Virus record (IMG/VR): IMGVR_UViG_3300032246_000716
Span: 1 to 26,556 of that record
DNA length: 26,556 bases
Origin: a virus
Reading direction: 5' to 3' (one strand)
Shown here: positions 2,593 through 26,441 of the stretch, one piece after another
Position numbering within the stretch: the stretch's first letter is position 1
Layout: every line of letters starts with the position of its first letter
Program-made: the position numbers and the translations under genes
The notes under the pieces: generated by a model
Told to the model about the DNA's origin: nothing
Databases searched by the model: none
What the model saw: only the letters and a program-made list of their open reading frames with translations

Positions 2593-4080
2593 ATGCAAGT
2601 ACCTAAATTTAGAGACTTTATAAAAGAAGAAAGACAGCAAGACGAAACCGATCCTATTACGGTCGTTGTCATTAGCAAATCTTCTCCTAAAGTAAGACGA
2701 CAGAAAACTGGTAATAAGAAATCTAAAAAAGAAATTACAGTAAGTTTTGTACAGAAGTCTTGTGCTAAAAGAAAAATACCTTGTTACATAATCAATACAA
2801 AATTCTCAATTATCACAGATAAAGACGAAGGAAAAAATACATTAACTATCTATAACTATGATGGTGAAGATGGTGAACAAACATTCATTGGTAAGAATAC
2901 AGTAGTTATTACAAGAGCAGGTGCCATAGAAGATGAAGCAGGACTTTCTTTAATATCAGCATTTCAAAACTCTGGTGCTTTTATGTTAAATACCAGGTCA
3001 GCAATGTTAACTTGCGATAACAAATTAACTTCAGCATTGTTATTTGAAAAGTTTAATATACCAACTCCAAAGACAGCATTCATATCAAACGAAAAGAATT
3101 TAGATAACGCATTAAAACTAGTAGGTAATAAATTTCCAGTTATTGTGAAAACATTAACAGGCACACAAGGTATTGGTGTAGTTAAAGTTGATAGTTACGA
3201 TTCATTAGTATCAGTAGTACAAGCATTGTTTAAACATGATGCTGAATTGTTATTACAAGAATATATGCCAACAGATTCAGATGTAAGAACATTCGTAGTA
3301 GATAATAAGATATTTGCGTGCACTAGACGTGTTAAGAAGTCTGGTGAATTTAGATCAAACGTTCATAGAGGTGCGATTGCTGAACCATATAAACTTTCAG
3401 ATGAAGAAATAGAAATAGTTTTAAGAACAGCACGAGCATCAAAAGCATATCTTGTAGGTATAGATCATATTAATTACAAAGGAAAAATTTACGTATTAGA
3501 AGCAAATGGTTCACCAGGAACTGGAGCTGATTATGAGGGATATCATTATGAAGATTATATAGATACACCTAATACAATAGGTCCAATTAAAGGTAGCCAG
3601 TTAGTTGATAATGTTATAGAATATATTTCAGACAGAAAACATTGGGATAGACAATCAATCGTAGAAGTAGGTTATCTAGAAACTGTAGAATTATCTACAG
3701 TAGGTAAAGTGAGAGCAAAATTAGATACAGGTAATGGTGCTGAAACTTGTGCTCTACATGCTGAAGAGGTGGAAGTAAAAGATGGTAAAGTTTCTTGGAA
3801 ATATGACGGAAAAAAACACACCAGCAAGTTAGAAGGATATCATAAAATTTTTAGGGCTAATACTAATGATGGTGAAGGAGAAAAAAGACCAGTTGTTAAA
3901 TTAGATTTAACATTTAATGGGTTTACATATAAAGATGTATCGTTTGGACTTGATGAAAGAAAAAGATCAGCGTCTGATGTATTGTTAAATAGAGATATAA
4001 TTAGAAAAATGAATGCTTCAGTAAATCCAAATAGAGAATTTGTATTAAGTAGAAGAATAAAACCTATTGACAAAAAGTAA
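2593..4080 (+). CDS. RimK-like ATP-grasp ligase fused to RimB-like retropepsin domain
   Basis: A 495-residue two-domain protein. Residues from about 20 to 345 form a RimK-type ATP-grasp amino-acid ligase: TPKTAFISN, the nucleotide-binding PVIVKTLTGTQGIGV, LLLQEYMP and the metal-binding EANGSPGTG at 303-311. RimK adds glutamates to the C-terminus of ribosomal protein S6. Residues from about 350 to 490 look like the RimB / ATP-dependent zinc protease family (retropepsin-like), with LDTGNGAETCALHA from 377 and the C-terminal VLLNRDIIRKMNASVNP...FVLS. In bacteria these are usually separate neighbouring genes. The N-terminus KFRDFIKEE resembles the capsid-targeting sequences of the late genes here. 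The substrate in this phage cannot be told from sequence; ribosomal protein S6 or another C-terminus is the family-based guess. Confidence 0.88.
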   Translation: MQVPKFRDFIKEERQQDETDPITVVVISKSSPKVRRQKTGNKKSKKEITVSFVQKSCAKRKIPCYIINTKFSIITDKDEGKNTLTIYNYDGEDGEQTFIGKNTVVITRAGAIEDEAGLSLISAFQNSGAFMLNTRSAMLTCDNKLTSALLFEKFNIPTPKTAFISNEKNLDNALKLVGNKFPVIVKTLTGTQGIGVVKVDSYDSLVSVVQALFKHDAELLLQEYMPTDSDVRTFVVDNKIFACTRRVKKSGEFRSNVHRGAIAEPYKLSDEEIEIVLRTARASKAYLVGIDHINYKGKIYVLEANGSPGTGADYEGYHYEDYIDTPNTIGPIKGSQLVDNVIEYISDRKHWDRQSIVEVGYLETVELSTVGKVRAKLDTGNGAETCALHAEEVEVKDGKVSWKYDGKKHTSKLEGYHKIFRANTNDGEGEKRPVVKLDLTFNGFTYKDVSFGLDERKRSASDVLLNRDIIRKMNASVNPNREFVLSRRIKPIDKK

Positions 4081-4770: not shown

Positions 4771-7259
4771 TGAACTTTTACAAATCAGTTATAGAACACA
4801 GAGGTAAACTTCTAGTCAGAGGTATACATGAAGAAAAAGAATATAAAGAACGAATAGACTTTGGGCCAACTCTTTATTCTTTAACTCAACAACAAACAGA
4901 ATTTAAAACCTTACAAGGCCAATATTTAAAACCTATTACATTTAAAACTATTGATGACGCTAGAAGATTTAGACGTGAAGTAGTTACAGACAATTCGCCT
5001 ATCTACGGCCTAGAGAGATATCATTATCAATATATTAATAAATTTCATCCTGATAATATAGATTGGGATAAGAAGTTTATTAAAATCTTTACACTAGATA
5101 TAGAAACTAGTTGCGAAAGTGGTTTCCCAGATGTACAAAATCCTATAGAAGAAATACTTTGTATTACAGTTAAGAATCAATCCAATAAACAAATACTAAC
5201 TTGGGGAACTGGTGATTATAAAACAGATAGAACAGATATAACTTATGTAAAATGTAAATCTGAAAAAGAATTAATGTTTGAGTTTATGAAGTTTTGGATT
5301 AAAAACTATCCAGACGTTACAACAGGTTGGAATACAAAATTCTTTGATATACCTTATTTACTTAGTAGAATTACTTTGGTTGCTGGTGAAAAGGTAGCTC
5401 AAAAGATATCGCCTTGGAATCTAATTCAAAAAGAAGAAATATTGGTAAGAGGAAGACCGCAAACTGTCTATGAAATAAAAGGCATAACCAATTTAGATTA
5501 CCTAGATTTATATCAATGGTTTATACCCACTAGACAAGAAAGTTACAAGTTAGATTTTATAGGTGAATTAGAACTTGGTCGTGGTAAAGATGAAATGAAA
5601 CACGACACATTTAAAGATTGGTACACAAATGACTTTCAATCATTTATTGATTACAATATTCAAGACGTTGAAATCGTTGACGCATTAGAAGATAAACTAG
5701 GACTAATTGATTTATCATTAACTGTTGCTTATGAATCTAAAGTAAACTATGGTGATATCTTTTCACAAGTAAGAGTGTGGGACACTTTAATAGCCAATCA
5801 TTTATTAAAAAAAAATATTTGTATTCCTCCACGTGAAGATAATATTAAAAATGAAAAATATGAAGGCGCTTATGTAAAAGAACCACAACTTGGCATGCAC
5901 AAGTGGATTGTTTCATTTGATATTAACTCCCTATATCCGCACATTATCATACAATATAATATTTCACCAGAAAAAATTATTGGTTTAAATTCAGAAGGAA
6001 TATCAGTTAATAAAATGTTAGACAAGTCAACATCATTAGAGTATTTAAAAGATAAAAATGTTTGTATCACACCGAATGGTGCATTGTTTAAAAATGATAG
6101 TCAAGGTTTTTTACCAGAGATGATGGAAACAATGTACAATGAACGTGTTGTTTTTAAAGACAGAATGTTAAAAGCAAAAAAAGAATATGAGAAAACAAAA
6201 GATCCGAGTTTAGTGAGAGAGATATCACGTTGCCACAATATTCAATGGGCAAGAAAGATTGCTCTAAACTCAGCTTACGGAGCAGTAGGCAACGAATACT
6301 TTAGATATTATGACGTTAGACAGGCCAGTGCCATAACAACAGCTGGTCAATTTATCATTAGATTTATAGAAGAAAAGGTTAATACGTATTTGAATGATAT
6401 ATTAAAACCAGAAAATAAAATAGATTACATTGTGGCATCTGATACAGATTCTATTTACGTTACATTAGATAAACTTGTAGAACAAACTTGTAAAGATAAA
6501 ACAGAAGATCAAGTGTGTAATTTTTTAAATAAGGTTGTTGATAGTAGAATTGAACCATTCTTAAATAAATGTTTTGAAGAACTTGCTGACTATACAAACG
6601 CATTTAAGAACTGTATGGTAATGAAACGAGAAGTAATTGCCAACAAAGGTATCTGGGTAGCAAAGAAAAGATATATGTTGAATGTATTAGATGAAGAAGG
6701 AGTTAGACTTTCTCAACCTAAGTTAAAGATTATGGGTATCGAAGCAGTTAAATCTTCAACACCACAAGTTTGTAGAGGTAAAATTAAAGAGGCCATTAAA
6801 ATTATAATGAGTAAAGATGAAGATACTTTACAAAAATTTATTGCTGATTTTAAAAAAGAGTTTTTTACAATGTCTGCTGAACAGATATCTTTTCCTAGAT
6901 CATGTAATAATATGAAAAAGTATTATGACAGTAATAATATCTTTATTAAAGGTACGCCAATACATGTTAAAGGTTCTTTAATTTACAATCATCAGATAAA
7001 AGAATTTAAACTTAAAAGTAAATATCCTTTAATACAAGAAGGAGATAAAATTAAGTTTCTTAAACTTATAGAAGCAAATCCATTTAAGTTTGATGTTATA
7101 AGTTATATAACAACATTACCAAAAGAATTTAATTTACAACAGTATATAGATTATGAAACTCAATTTGAAAAAACATTTTTAGATCCAATGAGATTTATAT
7201 TACAATCTATTGGATGGTCGCAAGAAAAGAAAGCAAACTTAGAGGCATTTTTCGCATGA
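4770..7259 (+). CDS. 43: DNA polymerase gp43 (family B)
   Basis: An 829-residue replicative polymerase with 3'-5' proofreading. Exonuclease motifs: LDIET with D110 and E112 (Exo I), TGWNTKFFDIPYL (Exo II), YNIQDVEIVDAL (Exo III). Polymerase motifs: DINSLYP at 384-390 (A), the Lys-then-NSAYG motif at 500-504 (B), DTDS at 558-561 (C), and KKRYMLNVL. It is somewhat shorter than T4 gp43 (898 aa). The C-terminal ANLEAFFA resembles the clamp-binding tail that docks on gp45. It overlaps the ferredoxin gene upstream and the next gene downstream (ATGA at 7256-7259). All catalytic residues I looked for are present, so it should be active. Confidence 0.97.
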   Translation: MNFYKSVIEHRGKLLVRGIHEEKEYKERIDFGPTLYSLTQQQTEFKTLQGQYLKPITFKTIDDARRFRREVVTDNSPIYGLERYHYQYINKFHPDNIDWDKKFIKIFTLDIETSCESGFPDVQNPIEEILCITVKNQSNKQILTWGTGDYKTDRTDITYVKCKSEKELMFEFMKFWIKNYPDVTTGWNTKFFDIPYLLSRITLVAGEKVAQKISPWNLIQKEEILVRGRPQTVYEIKGITNLDYLDLYQWFIPTRQESYKLDFIGELELGRGKDEMKHDTFKDWYTNDFQSFIDYNIQDVEIVDALEDKLGLIDLSLTVAYESKVNYGDIFSQVRVWDTLIANHLLKKNICIPPREDNIKNEKYEGAYVKEPQLGMHKWIVSFDINSLYPHIIIQYNISPEKIIGLNSEGISVNKMLDKSTSLEYLKDKNVCITPNGALFKNDSQGFLPEMMETMYNERVVFKDRMLKAKKEYEKTKDPSLVREISRCHNIQWARKIALNSAYGAVGNEYFRYYDVRQASAITTAGQFIIRFIEEKVNTYLNDILKPENKIDYIVASDTDSIYVTLDKLVEQTCKDKTEDQVCNFLNKVVDSRIEPFLNKCFEELADYTNAFKNCMVMKREVIANKGIWVAKKRYMLNVLDEEGVRLSQPKLKIMGIEAVKSSTPQVCRGKIKEAIKIIMSKDEDTLQKFIADFKKEFFTMSAEQISFPRSCNNMKKYYDSNNIFIKGTPIHVKGSLIYNHQIKEFKLKSKYPLIQEGDKIKFLKLIEANPFKFDVISYITTLPKEFNLQQYIDYETQFEKTFLDPMRFILQSIGWSQEKKANLEAFFA

Positions 7260-8359
7260 AAACTTTAACTAAAGAACAAGCGTTACATTGTGCTAAAATA
7301 TTTAAAGATTATTTTGGTGGGTTTAATCGTATAGATGATTATATGAGAGATCAAAAATTGGCCTCTATACAAAATATTCCTGCTGGATTACCAGGCATGA
7401 GTTTAGAAGATGATTTGTTTTCTGATTTTACAATGTCTCCTAATGATATGAAGTTAGAAGTATTGAAAATAGACAATACAACTTGGGACACGTGTCTTAC
7501 TATGATTTCAAGTCATACAAATATGATTAATATTCCTGGCAAAACTTTAAAATTAGCAGTTAAAGAAATGACAACTAATAAATTTGTAGGATTTATAAGA
7601 TTGGGTTCACCAGTTATTAATATGAAACCTAGAAATGAAATGTTAGATAATATTCCTGATCTATCACAGTTTAATAAAACTACCATTATGGGTTTTGCAA
7701 TAGTGCCTTCACAACCTTTTGGTTACAATTATCTTGGTGGTAAACTGTTGGCGGCTATTTGTTGTAGTCATTATGTAAGAGAATTATTAAACAAAAAATA
7801 TGGTATGAATTTATGTTTATTTGAGACGACAAGTTTATATGGTAGTACTAAAACTATCAGTCAATATGATGGTATGAAACCTTATGTCAGATATAAAGGC
7901 CTAACGGATAGTGATTTTGTTCCTAATTTAAATGGAAAGCCTTATGAACAATTAAAAGACTACGTTGAGAACATAGTAGGCGAATTAGTAAAAGAAGATG
8001 CGTCTAGTAAGAAGTTGAAGTTAACCAACGCAATCATAGGTTTAATTAAACGATCCTTAAAAGACGACAAGACTGAACTAGAAGATTTTAATAAAGTTAT
8101 CAACAACGCAAAAGACTTGACCGAACAAAAAAGATATTATATAAGCCATTATGGTATTAAGAATTATATTGATATAGTAAATGGTAAAGCAGATACTATT
8201 ATTAAAGATGATACCTATGATAAATTTGAACTAGAAAGTATCATAGAATGGTGGAGAAAGAAAGCAACCGTTCGTTATGAAACTTTAAAGAAAGAAAATA
8301 GAATACGAAACGAACTTGAAATCTGGACTAAAAATAATGATTTACAAATCATCCGATAA
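7256..8359 (+). CDS. Possible DUF4338 / DruA-like protein
   Basis: A 367-residue protein starting at ATG 7256 (MKTLTKEQAL), overlapping the polymerase stop; an upstream in-frame start at 7214 would lie within gene 43 and is less likely. The core region at about 145-215 resembles DUF4338, the DruA family named from the Druantia defence system: GFAIVPSQPFGYNYLGGK, then TTSLYGS near 190 and the YDGMKPYVRYKG segment. The C-terminal part is helical and charged (ESIIEWWRKKATVRYETLKK). It has no signal or membrane segment. DruA function is not established biochemically. In a phage replication operon it could act in DNA transactions or host interference. The family call is from remembered motif similarity and is moderate. 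Confidence 0.5.
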   Translation: MKTLTKEQALHCAKIFKDYFGGFNRIDDYMRDQKLASIQNIPAGLPGMSLEDDLFSDFTMSPNDMKLEVLKIDNTTWDTCLTMISSHTNMINIPGKTLKLAVKEMTTNKFVGFIRLGSPVINMKPRNEMLDNIPDLSQFNKTTIMGFAIVPSQPFGYNYLGGKLLAAICCSHYVRELLNKKYGMNLCLFETTSLYGSTKTISQYDGMKPYVRYKGLTDSDFVPNLNGKPYEQLKDYVENIVGELVKEDASSKKLKLTNAIIGLIKRSLKDDKTELEDFNKVINNAKDLTEQKRYYISHYGIKNYIDIVNGKADTIIKDDTYDKFELESIIEWWRKKATVRYETLKKENRIRNELEIWTKNNDLQIIR

Positions 8360-8379: not shown

Positions 8380-8401
8380 AACTTATAACATATTTGATGT
8401 G

Positions 8402-8893
8402 ATGGTGGAAGAAACTTTAAAAAATAGAGAGATGGATAAAAATAACTTATTAATACACAAGCACTTAATTATTCGTGCTGAAGTAAAAAACCCCCCAAAA
8501 GACGAACAGAAACTTACCGAGTGGATGAAAGAGTTTATTTCTTTTATCAATATGAAAGTTTTAATGGGACCTTACGTTAAATATTGTCCTACACCAGGCA
8601 ACCGTGGTATTACAGGTGTGGCCGTTATTGAAACAAGTCATATAGCAATACACGTATGGGACGAAACCGACCCAGCCATCATGCAGTTTGATGTTTATAG
8701 CTGCTCAGAATTTGACCCTTATAAAATAGCAGACAAACTACAAGCTGATTTTGACGTAGTAAAACTAGACTATAAGTTCCTTAATAGAGAAACTGAATTG
8801 AAACCTATAAGATTAAAGAAAGATACAATGAAAAATTATGCAAATAGTAATAATCAACAGACTTCAGAACCCACCCTATTTAATATCTCCTAA
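8402..8893 (+). CDS. speD: S-adenosylmethionine decarboxylase proenzyme (SpeD)
   Basis: A 163-residue AdoMet decarboxylase of the bacterial SpeD type, which makes the aminopropyl donor for spermidine. The enzyme cleaves itself before a serine that becomes the pyruvoyl cofactor. That region is TSHIAIHVWDE with S79 and H84, followed by FDVYSCSEFD with C101, matching the Ser/His/Cys triad of SpeD. The residue before the cleaved serine is Thr rather than the usual Glu. It is longer than Thermotoga SpeD (about 130 aa), with an N-terminal extension and a polar tail. No good ribosome binding site precedes ATG 8402; ATG 8432 (MDKNNLLIHK), after AGAGAG, is an alternative. Phage speD is a known marine auxiliary metabolic gene. 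Confidence 0.9.
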   Translation: MVEETLKNREMDKNNLLIHKHLIIRAEVKNPPKDEQKLTEWMKEFISFINMKVLMGPYVKYCPTPGNRGITGVAVIETSHIAIHVWDETDPAIMQFDVYSCSEFDPYKIADKLQADFDVVKLDYKFLNRETELKPIRLKKDTMKNYANSNNQQTSEPTLFNIS

Positions 8894-12469: not shown

Positions 12470-13690
12470 ATGTTTAGTTTTAAAGGATTTATAACAAAGG
12501 GTACTAACACCCATTTAGAACATTTAGAAGATTCTATTATAGATAGAGGTTCTAAAGGCGGTAAAGACGCTGTTCTATTTTTAAAAGCAATCAAAAAAAT
12601 GCTTACAGGCAATGTAGGCGGTCGACTTAACGTAACTGTTAAATGGGACGGCGCGCCAGCAGTTATCTGTGGTGTTAATCCTGAAAACGGAAAATTCTTT
12701 GTTGGTACTAAATCAGTATTCAACGTAAATCCAAAAATCAATTATTCAACAGGTGATATAATGAAAAATCATTCTGGTCCTTTAGCACAAAAACTTCAAG
12801 TTTGTTTAAGAGAATTATCTAAATTAGGCATTACAGGTATTTTACAAGGCGATCTTTTATTTACAAAAGGCGATATTAAAACAACTACAATAGATGATGA
12901 AGAAATGTATGTGTTTACACCCAACACAATTACATATGCTGTACCAGTTAATAGTACAATAGGCCAGAGAATAGCACGTGCTAGATTAGGTATTGTATTT
13001 CATACTGTTTATACAGGTAAAGATATGAAGCATCTTGCCGCAAGTTTTGGAAGTTTATCAGGCTTTCCTAAATCATCTTCTATCTTCATAACAGATGCCA
13101 CTTATAAAGACACATCAGGTTCAATTACATTTAACAAATCGGAAATGGGAACGTTTGATAATATTATTTCTATGGCTGAAGGTTCTTTATATAAAGCAGC
13201 TCCAGTTTTAAACATTCTTAATGTTAGTGATCCTTTAGCAGTAGGTTATAAACTTAAAACATTTTTTAATTACTACATTAGAAATTCACAAGGAGATATG
13301 GCCAAAGTAAAAGATTTAGTAGATATGTTTAGAGTGTATTATAATAACATGTTACAACAAGAAGTAGATGCTGTAAGTAAAGAAGAAACAAAAAACAAAT
13401 ATAGAAAAATTAGAGATGGCGGATTAGATTTTATAGATAGCAATAAACAAGCAATTTACTTTACCATAGCTAGTCATATATCATTACAAAGAGCTAAAAA
13501 CTTTTTGATAAGAAAAATGAATCAAATACAAAGCATTGGCCAGTTCATAAGAACACCAGATGGATTTAAAGTAACTAATCCAGAAGGATATGTGGCCGTT
13601 GATAGAGTGAAAGGTGCTGTTAAACTAGTTGACAGATTAGAATTTAGTAGAGCAAACTTTACAATAGCCAAAGATTGGCTGAAAGGATAA
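12470..13690 (+). CDS. Ligase-like nucleotidyltransferase (DUF6267-type), late-expressed
   Basis: A 406-residue protein that I associate with the uncharacterised phage family DUF6267. It shows the motif order of covalent nucleotidyltransferases (DNA/RNA ligases and capping enzymes). Motif I is KWDG at 58-61, motif III-like is LQGDLLF at about 125-131, motif IIIa-like is GIVFHTVYTG near 174-183, motif IV is EGYV at 372-375, and a motif V-like stretch AVKLVDR follows from about 383. About 190 residues separate IIIa and IV, a large helical insertion. If active, K58 would take AMP and seal nucleic-acid ends. The N-terminus MFSFKGFITKG resembles the capsid-targeting leader but lacks the cleavage Glu. 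First gene behind the late promoter at 12403. The ligase assignment is inference from motifs. Confidence 0.72.
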   Translation: MFSFKGFITKGTNTHLEHLEDSIIDRGSKGGKDAVLFLKAIKKMLTGNVGGRLNVTVKWDGAPAVICGVNPENGKFFVGTKSVFNVNPKINYSTGDIMKNHSGPLAQKLQVCLRELSKLGITGILQGDLLFTKGDIKTTTIDDEEMYVFTPNTITYAVPVNSTIGQRIARARLGIVFHTVYTGKDMKHLAASFGSLSGFPKSSSIFITDATYKDTSGSITFNKSEMGTFDNIISMAEGSLYKAAPVLNILNVSDPLAVGYKLKTFFNYYIRNSQGDMAKVKDLVDMFRVYYNNMLQQEVDAVSKEETKNKYRKIRDGGLDFIDSNKQAIYFTIASHISLQRAKNFLIRKMNQIQSIGQFIRTPDGFKVTNPEGYVAVDRVKGAVKLVDRLEFSRANFTIAKDWLKG

Positions 13691-13691
13691 T

Positions 13692-13979
13692 ATGAAATCA
13701 TTTAAACAATTTATAAACGAAGCGGCTGTAGATTCAAAAGGACTTAAAAGTTCTACAGGAGGATTAACACAAAAGGGTAGAGATTATTATAATCGTAAAG
13801 ATGGTAGTCATCTAAAAGCGCCTGTAACAAAAAAGCCATCTGAATTAAAAAAAGGTAGTAAGGCATATAATAGACGTAAGTCATTCTGTGCTCGTATGTC
13901 TGGTAATCCAGGCCCAATGAAAGACGATAAAGGAAGACCGACTCGTAAAGCATTGGCATTAAGAAAGTGGAATTGCTAG
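13692..13979 (+). CDS. DUF6321-type small basic protein with capsid-targeting N-terminus
   Basis: A 95-residue very basic protein. It opens with MKSFKQFINE then Ala, almost the T4 internal-protein capsid-targeting leader (MKTYQEFIAE then Ala) with a prohead-protease I-x-E site. Residues 15 onward match the uncharacterised DUF6321 pattern: SKGLKSSTGGLTQKGRDYYN, then KKPSELKKGSKAYNRRKSFC and ARMSGNPGPMKDDKGRPTRK, ending ALRKWNC. The basic, Gly/Lys-rich body would suit DNA binding inside the head, like the T4 internal proteins. Its stop overlaps the GTG start of the kinase gene by one base (TAGTG). Confidence 0.85.
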   Translation: MKSFKQFINEAAVDSKGLKSSTGGLTQKGRDYYNRKDGSHLKAPVTKKPSELKKGSKAYNRRKSFCARMSGNPGPMKDDKGRPTRKALALRKWNC

Positions 13980-14665
13980 TGAAATCGTTTGAACAAATAC
14001 TTTCAGAAGGCTTATACGATCCAGGTATCTTTAAGGCTTTTTTTTTAGCAGGTGGGCCAGGTTCTGGTAAATCATTTGTTACTAGAAACGTATTCTCAGG
14101 TTCAGGTTTAAAAATTGTTAACTCGGATATTATATTTGAAAACAGTTTAAAGAAAATGGGATTATCTTTATCTATGCCGGATGAAGAACAATACTTTAGA
14201 GATATAATGAGAACAAGAGCAAAAGCAACAACCGAAAATCAATTAGATTTATATATCAAAGGCAGATTAGGTTTAGTTGTAGATGCTACAGGTAGAGATT
14301 TTAACATAATACAAAGTCAAGCAGGATTATTAAAACAATTAGGTTATGATTGTTATATGGTATTTGTTAATACTAGTTTGGAAGTAGCATTAGAAAGAAA
14401 CTCTAAAAGAGAAAGAGTTGTACCCGAATACATTACAAAACAATCATGGCAAGGTGTTCAAAATAATATAGGTAAATTTCAAAACTATTTTGGTATGGAA
14501 AATTTTATAGTTGTAGATAATAGCAGATCAGAACAAGAATTAGTTACGATAACAATGAATAAAATAAATTCAGTTGTTAGAAGATTTTTAAATACACCTA
14601 TTAAAAGTTATATAGCAAAAAGATGGATGGCCAAAGAAAGAATGGCAAGGAGAAAAGATGTTTAA
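13979..14665 (+). CDS. P-loop kinase, polynucleotide kinase / zeta-toxin type, with capsid-targeting N-terminus
   Basis: I start this gene at GTG 13979, overlapping the previous TAG, because it gives MKSFEQILSE then Gly, matching the leader of its neighbour; an in-frame GTG at 13967 would add four residues. The 228-residue product has Walker A GGPGSGKS at 25-32, a catalytic-type Asp in IVNSD at about 50, LVVDATGRD, and an arginine-rich lid (ERNSKRERVVPEY). This is the layout of T4 Pnkp 5'-kinase and zeta-type kinases. It has no phosphatase domain. With the ligase-like gene two upstream, a 5'-end phosphorylating role is attractive; phosphorylation of a small metabolite is the alternative. Confidence 0.85.
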   Translation: MKSFEQILSEGLYDPGIFKAFFLAGGPGSGKSFVTRNVFSGSGLKIVNSDIIFENSLKKMGLSLSMPDEEQYFRDIMRTRAKATTENQLDLYIKGRLGLVVDATGRDFNIIQSQAGLLKQLGYDCYMVFVNTSLEVALERNSKRERVVPEYITKQSWQGVQNNIGKFQNYFGMENFIVVDNSRSEQELVTITMNKINSVVRRFLNTPIKSYIAKRWMAKERMARRKDV

Positions 14666-16961
14666 ACTAATTAAAGAAGCAGTAATAGATATACCTAGAC
14701 GTACTTATGCTAAAGACGTATTTGATAACGCAGATACAGAAAATCCAAAACTAAAACAATCTGTATTAGACATTATTAATGCTCAATTAAAAGAATTTGA
14801 AAAACTTTATCCTATTAAAAAATATAGTTTAGTTGGTTCAAGTATTACAAAACATTATAGAAATGACGCAGACTTAGATATAAATGTTTTATTTGATGTT
14901 GCTTCTGCTGATAGAGAAGCAGTTAGAATTAAATTATCACATCAGTTAAGAGGTATTAATGGTAAACTAATTCCAGGAACTAAACACCCAATTAACTATT
15001 ACATCATAACAGATCCAAATGTAAAAGAAACTAACGATAAAATGGCTGATGGAGTATTTGATATTAAAAACAATACTTGGATAAGAAAACCAAAAGAATT
15101 TAAATTTGATGCTAATAGATATGCGGCCGACTTTGAAAGAAAAGTAAAAGAGATAGATGTAATAGAAGGAGAATTAAAAAGAGATATCATTGATTACAAA
15201 GAGTTAACAGAATTAAATCCTGATGATGTTTTAAATCTACAAGAAATTGTAAATGAAAAGATATCTAAGATAGAAGATGATATTAAACATTTAGTTGACA
15301 TTGGTAATACAGTATTAAAAGATAGACGAGACGCTTTTGCTACTGATATGACACCAGAAGAAATAAGAACATTTAGTAAAAAGAATTTATTACCTAAGAA
15401 TGTTATCTATAAGATGTTAGAAAAATATCATTATTTAAGATTGTATCATCAATTAAAAGATATATTAGATGATGGTAAAATAACAGACGCAGAAATACGT
15501 TCTATAAAAACAGAAGGAGTTAATAAATCTTTTGCATTTACTTTTGGCAGATTTAATCCACCAACAATAGGACATGAAAAATTATTACAAAAGGTTGCAA
15601 GTTTAGGATCAGAATATAAAATATTTTTAAGTAGATCACAAGACGCAGTTAAAAATCCATTAACACCATCAGACAAATTAAAATGGATGACAACTATATT
15701 TAAATCTTATGCTAGTCATATATTAATAATGCCTACAAATATGGTATTAGAATTAGCAGCAAAAATTTACAGTATGGGTTACACAAATGTAACTATGGTT
15801 GTTGGTAGTGATAGAGTAAGAGAATTTGATACTATACTAAACAAATATAATGGCGAAAGAAACAGACATGGTTTCTATAACTTTGAAAAGATAAATGTAG
15901 TATCAGCAGGCGAAAGAGATCCTGATGAAGAAGGCGTAACAGGAATGAGTGCGAGTAAATTAAGAAACTATGCTTCAAGAGGAGATTTAAAAAATTTTAA
16001 AAGAGGAATACCAGGAAATTTAACAGAGAAACAAAAGAACGAATTATTTTTTGATGTTAGAAAAAATATGGGATTATCAGTTAGTTTGGCCGCAGAATTT
16101 GAACCAACAGAAATGCCTAAAACTTTACAACAATTTGAAACACAACAAGTAAGAGACTTATACATTAGAGAAATGATATTCAATATTAACGAACAAGCAC
16201 ACAACGTCAATTTAGATGTAAAAGGAAAAGTAGTAAGACGAGGAACAAATTATATTGTATTAGAAGATACAAATAACAACCTTCACAAATCATGGATTTG
16301 GGATTGTATTCCAATAGCCGCAGATAAAGAAGTAATGGTACGAGAATACAATTTAGATATTGATTACGGATTTAAAGCCGTATCGGAAATTAAAAAAGAA
16401 GATCAACAAGAGCAACGAAAAAAAATATTTAAAGAATTGAAAAAGGATTTAATTAAGATGACAAAAAAAGAAGCATACGATATAGGGCATGATTATGCTC
16501 TACACACCTCTAAGACAACACCAGGAGAACCTGGTTACGACCCAAATTACAAAGGCACAACATATACACCTAGTAACACAGAAGATAATAAAGAGTTAGT
16601 AACACAAGGTAGATCATATCCTGATGGTGAAAAAATACCAAATGTATTGCCACCAAAATATATGCCAGCTAATTCAAAAGAAGTACCAGAAGGACAAAAC
16701 TGTTATAATTGCGAATATGGTAGTAAAAATGAAGGTAATTACTGTACTTTATTTAACGCTAAAGTAAGACCAACATACTGGTGTGCTAAATGGGAACCAA
16801 GTGATAAGAAAGTGTCCATGCAAGATATAGAAGAATGGGCTGGTGCAAATGATACAATAGATAAATATAGACAAAGATATGGTAATAACTATCAATCTAA
16901 GATTGACGAAGTTAAACAAAAAATGATGTCTTTCAAAGAATATAATAAGGATAAGAAATAA
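14658..16961 (+). CDS. Multidomain protein: pol-beta NTase + NMN/cytidylyltransferase-like + HiPIP-like Cys domain
   Basis: A 767-residue fusion. Residues 1-8 (MFKLIKEA) hold an I-x-E leader. A pol-beta-type nucleotidyltransferase follows: GSS at 60-62 and the metal-binding D72-x-D74. A helical linker runs to about 285. Residues 290-445 are a HIGH-superfamily adenylyl/cytidylyltransferase: FTFGRFNPPTIGH (TIGH at 303-306), LTPSDKLKWM and the MSASKLR loop at 430-436, as in NMN adenylyltransferases. Near the C-terminus lie C682-x2-C685-x10-C696-x12-C709 with YWCAKW, resembling the HiPIP 4Fe-4S signature. It ends MMSFKEYNKDKK. The gene overlaps the kinase gene by 8 bases and the next gene by one. 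Possible roles are NAD metabolism or nucleotide addition to RNA or DNA ends; the substrate is unknown. Confidence 0.8.
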   Translation: MFKLIKEAVIDIPRRTYAKDVFDNADTENPKLKQSVLDIINAQLKEFEKLYPIKKYSLVGSSITKHYRNDADLDINVLFDVASADREAVRIKLSHQLRGINGKLIPGTKHPINYYIITDPNVKETNDKMADGVFDIKNNTWIRKPKEFKFDANRYAADFERKVKEIDVIEGELKRDIIDYKELTELNPDDVLNLQEIVNEKISKIEDDIKHLVDIGNTVLKDRRDAFATDMTPEEIRTFSKKNLLPKNVIYKMLEKYHYLRLYHQLKDILDDGKITDAEIRSIKTEGVNKSFAFTFGRFNPPTIGHEKLLQKVASLGSEYKIFLSRSQDAVKNPLTPSDKLKWMTTIFKSYASHILIMPTNMVLELAAKIYSMGYTNVTMVVGSDRVREFDTILNKYNGERNRHGFYNFEKINVVSAGERDPDEEGVTGMSASKLRNYASRGDLKNFKRGIPGNLTEKQKNELFFDVRKNMGLSVSLAAEFEPTEMPKTLQQFETQQVRDLYIREMIFNINEQAHNVNLDVKGKVVRRGTNYIVLEDTNNNLHKSWIWDCIPIAADKEVMVREYNLDIDYGFKAVSEIKKEDQQEQRKKIFKELKKDLIKMTKKEAYDIGHDYALHTSKTTPGEPGYDPNYKGTTYTPSNTEDNKELVTQGRSYPDGEKIPNVLPPKYMPANSKEVPEGQNCYNCEYGSKNEGNYCTLFNAKVRPTYWCAKWEPSDKKVSMQDIEEWAGANDTIDKYRQRYGNNYQSKIDEVKQKMMSFKEYNKDKK

Positions 16962-19884: not shown

Positions 19885-20385
19885 ATGGATAAGTTACCTC
19901 GTATATATTGCGATATGGATGGAGTGTTGTGTGATTTTAAATCCGCAGCAATTAAAACTACAGGAATGCCTATTGATAAGTGGATGGAAAATGATGATAG
20001 TGATGATAAATGGAAACCTATAGTAGATAAAAAAGATTTTTGGCATACATTACCATGGTTATCTGGTGGCCAACAACTCTGGTCTTATATTAACAATTAT
20101 CAACCACACATATTGTCAGCATATGTAGAACATACAAGTGATCCAAATTGTATTCCAGGAAAAAGATCATGGGCAATATCTCATTTAGGTATACCAGCAA
20201 ACAGAATCAATCTAGTTAAAAGAAAAGAAAAACAAAATTATGCCAAAGTTAATGGTGAACCTGCTGTATTAATAGATGATTATATAAAAAACATTAATCA
20301 ATTTAAAGCTCGAGGCGGTATAGGAATACTACACACCAGTGCGGCCAACACCATATCACAGTTAAAAAAACTAGGTTTCAAATAG
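19885..20385 (+). CDS. HAD-family phosphatase, 5'(3')-deoxyribonucleotidase-like
   Basis: A 166-residue HAD hydrolase. The catalytic DMDGV at 10-14 (nucleophile D10, acid D12) is followed by a small cap (WHTLPWLSGGQQLW). The later motifs are HILSAYVE near 80, a Lys in VKRKEKQNY and the C-terminal metal site LIDDYIKNI near 135. Size and DMDGVLCDF fit the 5'(3')-deoxyribonucleotidase group, which dephosphorylates nucleoside monophosphates; polynucleotide phosphatases share the fold. It has no capsid-targeting leader. It lies at the end of the late block that also holds the kinase and ligase-like genes, so it could supply the phosphatase step that the kinase lacks. Confidence 0.85.
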   Translation: MDKLPRIYCDMDGVLCDFKSAAIKTTGMPIDKWMENDDSDDKWKPIVDKKDFWHTLPWLSGGQQLWSYINNYQPHILSAYVEHTSDPNCIPGKRSWAISHLGIPANRINLVKRKEKQNYAKVNGEPAVLIDDYIKNINQFKARGGIGILHTSAANTISQLKKLGFK

Positions 20386-25153: not shown

Positions 25154-25621
25154 ATGAAAGCACTATTAAAAATAGTGCTAGTAGCCACTTTTAGTTATGG
25201 TTTTTTGATAACTACTGGCACAGCAGGTCCTTTACCTGATTATAATTTCAAAAGTCCCGCTTTTAATGGCAATGGATACAGTACGCATGAGTTAACTAAG
25301 TACAACTTAGAACAAACTCGAGCGAAAGAAATTCAACAAGCTATTGAAGCAAAGGTAGCAGCAGTTAAAGCTGAGGCTAAGAATACTCCTATTAATCAAT
25401 TTATGGTTAATTTGGAGTCTAGGATTTATGCTCAGATTAGTCAGAACTTAGCAACAGCTATGTTTGCTGATGGAGCATCTACAACAGGTTCAATGGGCTT
25501 TCAAGGCAACACTATATTTTGGCAAAAGAATGGAACAACAAGTATTACATTAAAGGTAACTGATACACTTGGTAATCAAACAACGATTGAAGTGCCACTA
25601 GGACAGTTTACTTTTAATTAA
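25154..25621 (+). CDS. csgF: CsgF-like curli assembly protein
   Basis: A 155-residue secreted protein. A signal peptide (MKALLKIVLVATFSYGFLIT, ending near TAG) is followed by PDYNFKSPAFNGNG, which parallels the mature N-terminus of E. coli CsgF (FQFRNPNFGGNP), the part that plugs into the CsgG pore. A helical middle (INQFMVNLESRIYAQISQNL) and a beta C-terminus (IFWQKNGTTSITLKVTD, LGNQTTIEVP) match CsgF as well. CsgF couples secretion of curlin to fibre nucleation outside the outer membrane. It lies one base upstream of a clear csgG. The residues between the N-terminal plug and the helix are rich in charged residues. Confidence 0.85.
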   Translation: MKALLKIVLVATFSYGFLITTGTAGPLPDYNFKSPAFNGNGYSTHELTKYNLEQTRAKEIQQAIEAKVAAVKAEAKNTPINQFMVNLESRIYAQISQNLATAMFADGASTTGSMGFQGNTIFWQKNGTTSITLKVTDTLGNQTTIEVPLGQFTFN

Positions 25622-25622
25622 T

Positions 25623-26441
25623 ATGATAAAAATACTTTTAACATTAGGATTATTGGTTCTATCAAATTGTGCACTATCACAAAAGGCAGGTTTAGAATCT
25701 AAACCAGAGATTACCGAAATGAAATTACAAAAAGAATTTGATAGTATACCATCTCCAGCACAAAAGAAAATTACTGTGGCAGTTTATAGTTTTCAAGATA
25801 AAACTGGTCAAAGAAGAAACACTCCTAATATAGCAAGTTTCTCTACAGCAGTAACACAAGGCGCAGAACCATTCCTTATTAAAGCATTACAAGATGTTGG
25901 TCAAGGACAATGGTTTGATGTGGTAGAAAGAGTGAACGTAGATAACTTAGTTAAAGAAAGAACCATTATTAAACAAATGAGAGACATGTTTGAAGGAATA
26001 AATGCTAAGAATTTACAACCATTACAATTTGCAGGTGTAATAGTTGAAGGTGGTATTATAGGTTATGACAGTGGTATGGAATCTGGTGGTTTGGCATATA
26101 AGTGGTTAGGTGTAGGACCTCAATCACAGTATTCAAAAGATATTGTTACTATTAGTTTAAGAGCAGTATCAGTGAGCAGTGGTAAAGTTTTGGCCACTAT
26201 AACAGTAAGTAAAACGATATACAGTACAGGAGACAGTATTGCTATATTAAAAGCTTTTAGAGGCGGTACAGCATTTTTTGAAGCTGAAACAGGATTGACA
26301 ATCAACGAACCTACTACTTTAGCAATAAAAGCAACAGTAGAAGCAGCAGTAGTTGAATTAATAAAAGAAGGTGAACGTAAAGGCATTTGGTCTTATAAAA
26401 AAATAACAAATAACAACGAGGGAAAAAATGAACAAAAATAA
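25623..26441 (+). CDS. csgG: CsgG-like curli outer-membrane secretion pore
   Basis: A 272-residue protein with high similarity to E. coli CsgG (277 aa) over its length: PSPAQKKITVAVYSFQDKTG, ASFSTAVTQGAEPFLIKAL, FDVVERVNVDNLVKER, GVIVEGGIIGYDSGMESGG, YSKDIVTISLRAVSVSSGKV, KGIWSY. CsgG forms a nine-subunit outer-membrane channel for curlin. The N-terminus has a lipoprotein-type signal with C16 (VLSNC), although Asn at -1 is unusual. Of the E. coli constriction residues the Phe before STAV is kept, while the Asn before it is Ser. It overlaps the curlin-like gene start by 14 bases. Phage carriage is remarkable; I recall csgF/csgG-like genes mentioned for related pelagimyophages, but cannot verify that here. 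Confidence 0.93.
   Translation: MIKILLTLGLLVLSNCALSQKAGLESKPEITEMKLQKEFDSIPSPAQKKITVAVYSFQDKTGQRRNTPNIASFSTAVTQGAEPFLIKALQDVGQGQWFDVVERVNVDNLVKERTIIKQMRDMFEGINAKNLQPLQFAGVIVEGGIIGYDSGMESGGLAYKWLGVGPQSQYSKDIVTISLRAVSVSSGKVLATITVSKTIYSTGDSIAILKAFRGGTAFFEAETGLTINEPTTLAIKATVEAAVVELIKEGERKGIWSYKKITNNNEGKNEQK

Follow-up and report, generated by a model that had tools for sequence, protein, structure and literature searches.

What is the function of a very common phage gene that carries nothing more than a DUF label? The question is raised by a T4-like myovirus from IMG/VR (record IMGVR_UViG_3300032246_000716), of which we analysed a stretch of 26,556 nucleotides, here called the window. Downstream of the genes for a clamp loader, a B-family DNA polymerase, UvsX and a DnaB-type helicase lies a DUF6267 gene (12470..13690, plus strand) encoding 406 amino acids, for which the reading frame, the Pfam match and an AlphaFold2 model lead us to predict a covalent nucleotidyltransferase. 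The label itself, assigned by a first-pass annotation made from the DNA letters, is confirmed by a full-length match to Pfam PF19782 (1–376; E 1.8e-116; 390 bits at a cut-off of 27). The protein belongs to PHROG 455, the same family as T4-GC 71 of the cyanophage literature. As that annotation had supposed, PHROG 455 is without assigned function, and none is given in the libraries or the literature searched. We counted DUF6267 in at least 469 phage records, mainly from phages of Synechococcus and Prochlorococcus, along with a few from phages of Pelagibacter, Methylophilales, Vibrio and others; T4 lacks it. The nearest isolate relative of the window protein is in Pelagibacter phage HTVC008M (50%).

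Active-site motifs and the helical insertion

Homologues were gathered from IMG/VR and GTDB contigs, and 86 sequences with 25–84% identity to the window protein were aligned. Motif I, KWDGAPA (residues 58–64; 12641..12661; this and all following motifs on the plus strand), contains the predicted nucleotidyl-accepting Lys58, located at the end of strand 53–58 in the AlphaFold model, and is nearly universal (K58 in 85, D60 in 86 and G61 in 85 of the 86 sequences). It is followed by a motif Ia-like FFVGTKSVF (residues 76–84; 12695..12721), whose K81 and F84 are each present in 86/86, and by a motif III-like QGD (residues 126–128; 12845..12853) within strand 124–132 of the model, whose Asp128, again found in 86/86, replaces a Glu. 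His178 of the motif IIIa-like GIVFHT (residues 174–179; 12989..13006) does not vary in the 86 sequences either. Motif IV, EGYV (residues 372–375; 13583..13594), and motif V, KLVDR (residues 385–389; 13622..13636), complete the set: E372, G373 and K385 occur in 85/85 ungapped rows, Lys385 is joined by an invariant Arg389, and Val387 replaces the second Lys of motif V. N267, K343 and F392 belong, with R389, to the other positions that are invariant or nearly so.

The five segments on which the nucleotidyltransferase reading had been built, K58-W-D60-G61, QGDLLF (126–131), GIVFHTVYTG (174–183), EGYVAV (372–377) and AVKLVDR (383–389), are present where they had been placed and in the claimed order I, III, IIIa, IV, V, to which the invariant K81 adds motif Ia. 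K58, E372 and K385, whose invariance that reading depended on, are constant in the 86 relatives save one degenerate copy of 257 amino acids, the sole family member that deviates from KxDG. Because the motif residues are invariant in 86 sequences down to 25% identity, their occurrence in the window protein is not due to chance. About 20 residues follow motif V, and the C-terminal OB domain that carries motif VI in DNA ligases and capping enzymes is missing from the window protein.

Motifs IIIa and IV are separated by an all-helical insertion (residues ~223–351; 13136..13522, plus strand), which comprises five helices in the model and includes the invariant N267 and K343. The first-pass annotation had described a long insertion at this place; its length is as claimed, with 194 residues from H178 to E372 in the window protein, and part of it is restricted to one branch of the family. 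In the tree, a long-form clade (64 of 84 rows) is distinguished from a short-form clade of 20 rows (support 100/100), from which ~100 of the insertion residues are absent; isolates of short-form length are P-SSM2, S-T4 and ACG-2014f. Since short forms keep 126 residues with three helices (H134 to E260 in the member that we modelled), the helical domain is family-wide, long forms having ~100 residues of their own in it, and N267 and K343 are located in the common part. PADLOC matches on this helical region (PtuA, 0.009) were rejected as noise.

Leader sequences and gene neighbourhood

The window protein starts with a capsid-targeting-like leader, MFSFKGFITKGT (residues 1–12; 12470..12505, plus strand), recognised from homologous leaders, the model and the tree, in which the Glu of the cleavage site is changed to Lys. 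Internal proteins of T4 reach the head via an N-terminal capsid-targeting sequence, and gp21 cuts after L/I-X-E (PMC9026906). Many long-form DUF6267 proteins follow the consensus MxxFKxFLxE/A (slash, predicted cleavage position), with starts such as MKSFQTFLNE/AK, MQSFKQYLSE/AR, MKFTEYLTE/AT and FKELLTE/AKA. The leader in HTVC008M reads YNDLLVE/D. A loose version of this pattern is met by 35 of 64 dereplicated long forms, compared to 6.5 expected from shuffles, and by one of 24 sequences classed as short, which has a leader of the long-form type. Similar leaders are found on 10 of 17 kinases and 25 of 49 HIGH-type proteins. Cyanophage short forms lack the leader, as do several long forms, and 5 of 10 UvsX N-termini, which belong to non-packaged proteins, fit the loose pattern as well. 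These latter observations would be expected if the leader were an ordinary amphipathic N-terminus with no capsid-targeting signal, a serious reading to which we give somewhat less credence. The excess over shuffles and the L/I-X-E site of gp21 argue against it, as do residues 1–10 of the window protein, which are disordered in the model, the leader being outside the conserved domain.

Evidence from virions also bears on this point. The cytidylyltransferase GC190, encoded directly after DUF6267 in S-SM1 and starting with the same kind of leader (MKKFSAFLNE/AERS), was detected in purified S-SM1 virions (PMC3037559), which speaks against an ordinary N-terminus; in the passages covered, DUF6267 (GC71) is not named among the virion proteins. 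S-CREM2 virions contain a cytidylyltransferase too, for which the authors allow for contamination (PMC10665884), and this would suit an ordinary N-terminus.

The window protein and its closest relatives form a clade (MFSFKGFITKGT and variants, 11 rows, 100/100) in which the Glu is gone. Because this Glu-less clade is a single branch nested among Glu-bearing sister rows, the cleavage site was probably lost once. As a consequence of this loss, the window protein may escape cleavage while still being targeted, or may no longer be packaged. By analogy with T4, where Asp at position 10 of the leader blocks processing and leaves targeting intact, the protein could be packaged without being cut.

At least six other window genes carry a T4 capsid-targeting-like leader, starting at 13692 (FINE/A), 13967 (ILSE/G), 14658 (LIKE/A), 16961 (FIKE/S), 21309 (HIKE/A) and 2593 (FIKE/E), which suggests a large set of putatively head-packaged proteins in the window phage. 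The last of these encodes a RimK-like ATP-grasp domain fused to an ATP-dependent Zn-protease-like domain (2593–4080; leader FRDFIKE). Three of them directly follow DUF6267 on the plus strand: a DUF6321 protein with the N-terminus MKSFKQFINE/A (13692..13979; Pfam PF19846, E 2.6e-27), a P-loop kinase of the AAA_33/Zeta/polynucleotide-kinase-like type with the leader KSFEQILSE/G (13967..14665; AAA_33, E 2.9e-13; PHROG polynucleotide kinase, E 9.5e-8), and a 767-amino acid protein with a HIGH-type adenylyl/cytidylyltransferase domain and the start MFKLIKE/A (14658..16961; CTP_transf_like, E 4e-6; TIGR00125, E 6.9e-7). The 767-amino acid chain also contains a weak polymerase-beta-like nucleotidyltransferase region (~43–85; NTP_transf_2, E 0.02, below cut-off).

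This neighbourhood recurs at long-form loci, where within 6 kb the DnaB helicase is found in 38 of 80, the P-loop kinase in 18 of 80 and the 767-amino acid nucleotidyltransferase in 29 of 80; none of the three was found within 3 kb of short forms. The HIGH-type transferase is present at 28/75 long-form viral loci, 17/33 genome loci and 7/14 named-phage loci. In some phages DUF6267 is even fused to a HIGH-type domain, which is C-terminal at three loci and N-terminal at one, and a fusion is also found in S-PM2 (A0A0M6VVW4, 591 amino acids). In the first S-PM2 record (AJ630128; locus L423, 5992–7771), DUF6267 is split into two open reading frames, and the gene named “Cytitidyltransferase” (GC190) holds its C-terminal half. 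A HAD phosphatase-like gene (19885–20385) was considered as a Pnkp-type repair phosphatase and rejected, as it is NT5C-like, lies 6 kb away and is near DUF6267 in few loci.

Other genes of the window were noted in passing. A DruA-like protein of the DUF4338 type (7214–8359; Pfam E 1.6e-6, PADLOC E 1.1e-7) adjoins the DNA polymerase gene, and other phages also have members of its family close to DUF6267. An S-adenosylmethionine decarboxylase (speD-like) gene is located at 8399–8893, and CsgF-like and CsgG-like curli secretion genes adjoin each other at 25154–26441 (Pfam E 9.6e-15 and 7.2e-45).

Predicted fold and profile likeness to ligases

AlphaFold2 modelled the window protein with a pLDDT of 89.1 and a pTM of 0.84, and a short-form member of 293 amino acids with a pLDDT of 93.7 and a pTM of 0.88. 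Foldseek comparison of either model with the PDB gave no match at E ≤ 0.001 (best E 0.09, probability 0.41) and low TM-scores. For the short-form model, ranks 1–11 are all DNA or RNA ligases or a capping enzyme, including 2hiv, 3rr5, 9dfa, T4 Rnl2, T4 Rnl1-ATP (9do4, rank 5), 2cfm, LigA and human RNGTT, and superfamily members account for 25 of the best 50 matches. Ligases or a capping enzyme make up 13 of the best 50 for the long-form model. Weak matches to ATP-grasp enzymes were obtained with both models, to D-Ala ligase for the short form and to acetyl-CoA carboxylase chains for the long form. The concentration of ligases among the short-form matches is not a chance effect, because sequence searches found 67 distinct sequences of three of these families (LigA, ATP DNA ligase and Rnl2 relatives) among 177,635 PDB sequences. 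The nearest solved folds are covalent nucleotidyltransferases. Neither of the two findings that would have refuted the first-pass reading, variable motif residues or a different predicted fold, was made, and the reading is supported, the ligase chemistry being a prediction.

Sequence comparison is less uniform along the protein. Single-sequence and profile searches of the PDB sequences gave no ligase match, and in whole-family HHalign runs the Rnl1, Rnl2, RNA ligase, LigA and ATP ligase profiles scored at or below control level, an adenylate-kinase-like control ranking above the ligases over the whole length. In a register test with ligase HMMs, KxDG was placed on the ligase Lys in none of the Rnl1 (0/197), Rnl2 (0/232) and RNA-ligase (0/149) domains, in 7 of 138 LigA domains and in 1 of 140 ATP-ligase domains. 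We then compared motifs IV–V with an RLIG1-type alignment of three bacterial proteins and 71 viral-contig relatives, which scored 27–34%, compared to 7% for Rnl1 and at most 1.2% for controls; 0 of 60 column shuffles reached the RLIG1-type or the Rnl1 score. When the insertion was cut out, HHalign brought motifs I, IV and V of DUF6267 and RLIG1-type proteins into register, and the N-terminal half did not rise above the adenylate-kinase-like control. The profile–profile comparison, which had been proposed as a check, yields a specific signal at motifs IV–V only and a whole-length score at or below control, and suggests a likeness to RLIG1-type proteins that falls short of proof of common descent.

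By the tests run, DUF6267 is outside the Pfam families of both enzymes. The scan of the 86 members gave no match to the T4 Rnl1 family PF09511 over cut-off, and the C-terminal RNA-binding domain is missing; neither the matches of the window protein nor the families listed for the 86 members include the RLIG1 family PF17720. A match to RNA_lig_T4_1 in one of the 86 (E 0.017), among 73 mostly noise families, was discounted as evidence. Independently of DUF6267, a widespread RLIG1-like phage family of ~180–200 amino acids with KxDG and EG(x)V motifs was observed (L439–L513).

Taken together, DUF6267 is likely to be a divergent covalent nucleotidyltransferase of the ligase/capping superfamily, and its sequence indicates that it is probably catalytically active. 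Within this superfamily, RNA 5′ capping, or NMP transfer with a protein or small molecule as acceptor, in a pathway shared with the HIGH-type (NMNAT/cytidylyltransferase-like) partner, is an unlikely but arguable role: the adjacent or fused HIGH-type transferase, the rank of RNGTT, the single Lys in motif V and the lack of an OB or RNA-binding C-terminal domain would all suit it, whereas the nearest motif pattern is that of an RNA ligase (RLIG1, Rnl1) and the polynucleotide-kinase-like kinase next door fits end healing and sealing. The unanimity of the top 11 short-form matches and the agreement in order and spacing of motifs I, Ia, III, IIIa, IV and V make it improbable that the protein adopts a different fold, for instance ATP-grasp or a novel one, and resembles ligases in its motifs by chance, even if Foldseek E-values above 0.001, the weak ATP-grasp matches and profile scores near control level point in that direction. 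That the nucleotidyltransferase fold has lost catalysis and is retained for a virion or scaffold role, as the lost second Lys of motif V, the Asp for Glu in motif III and the capsid leader of many members might imply, is very improbable given that all predicted catalytic residues are invariant across families at 25–30% identity.

Proposed activity and comparison with known systems

For DUF6267 as a covalent nucleotidyltransferase we propose a reaction that would begin with a lysyl-N-NMP intermediate, formed when Lys58 attacks ATP or another NTP at its alpha-phosphate; K81 (Ia), D128 (III), H178 (IIIa), E372 (IV) and K385 (V) would hold nucleotide and metal. Transfer of the NMP to an acceptor would follow, the likeliest candidate being a 5′-phosphorylated RNA end, which would be sealed; RNA end joining is our best guess for the reaction. 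Binding of the acceptor or of a partner is the probable task of the helical domain that separates IIIa from IV and includes the invariant N267 and K343. The leader-bearing protein of many phages in the family is probably packaged in the head and injected alongside the DNA, accompanied by the HIGH-type nucleotidyltransferase and the P-loop kinase encoded nearby; it may therefore act as an enzyme that reaches the host as infection begins.

The T4-like capsid-targeting leader on many long-form DUF6267 proteins and on the neighbouring cytidylyltransferase is a new observation. The DUF6267 leader suggests delivery of nucleotide-chemistry enzymes by the virion. To our knowledge, virion delivery of such enzymes is known mainly for T4 Alt and internal proteins. 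That marine T4-like phages carry and inject a whole RNA-end kit, consisting of an RLIG1/Rnl1-like ligase (DUF6267), a P-loop kinase and HIGH-type nucleotidyltransferases, is a speculative extension that we think doubtful; if true, RNA or tRNA repair or RNA-end modification would precede any phage gene expression. Nucleotidylation of Lys58 is a testable assignment at the level of a single residue and would open up a very common gene of phages that infect mostly marine cyanobacteria and pelagic bacteria.

DUF6267 resembles the T4 internal proteins (Alt, IPI–III) in having a short leader at the N-terminus that ends in L/I-X-E, as in members of the MKSFKQFLTE type. It differs from them in that its mature part is a predicted nucleotidyltransferase, that the window copy is without the cleavage Glu and that packaging is deduced from the leader. 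With ATP- and NAD-dependent DNA ligases and mRNA capping enzymes it shares the predicted adenylation-domain fold and the motifs, without their OB domain and motif VI.

The closest systems are minimal RNA ligases, namely the catalytic domain of T4 Rnl1 and RLIG1. In T4 Rnl1, we take K119, E159 and K240 to be motif residues. The set in the sequence from AF158101 is K99, K119, E159, E227 and K240, and the spacings I–Ia, Ia–III and IV–V are 20, 40 and 13 residues, compared to 23, 47 and 13 in the window protein. Over motifs IV–V, T4 Rnl1 reads EGYVAVMKDGSHFKIKSDW and the window protein EGYVAVDRVKGAVKLVDRL, with EGYVAV in common and Val387 in place of the second motif V lysine, K242. Unlike T4 Rnl1, DUF6267 is without the C-terminal RNA-binding domain and has an insertion inside the catalytic domain.

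RLIG1 (C12orf29; PF17720) is likewise a minimal RNA ligase without the RNA-binding domain of Rnl1, with the active residues K73, R89, E174, His195 (motif IIIa), E240 and K253 and 13 residues from IV to V (PMC11494293). DUF6267 is set apart from it by the 126–194-residue helical domain between IIIa and IV, Asp in place of Glu in motif III, an N-terminal HLEHxED motif, often a capsid leader, and no detectable whole-length homology. The likeness to RLIG1 is indicated by the invariant His178 at motif IIIa, and the two have in common a minimal domain with no OB or RNA-binding C-terminal domain, KxDG, a basic Ia residue, EG(x)V and a Lys located 13 residues past the motif IV Glu.
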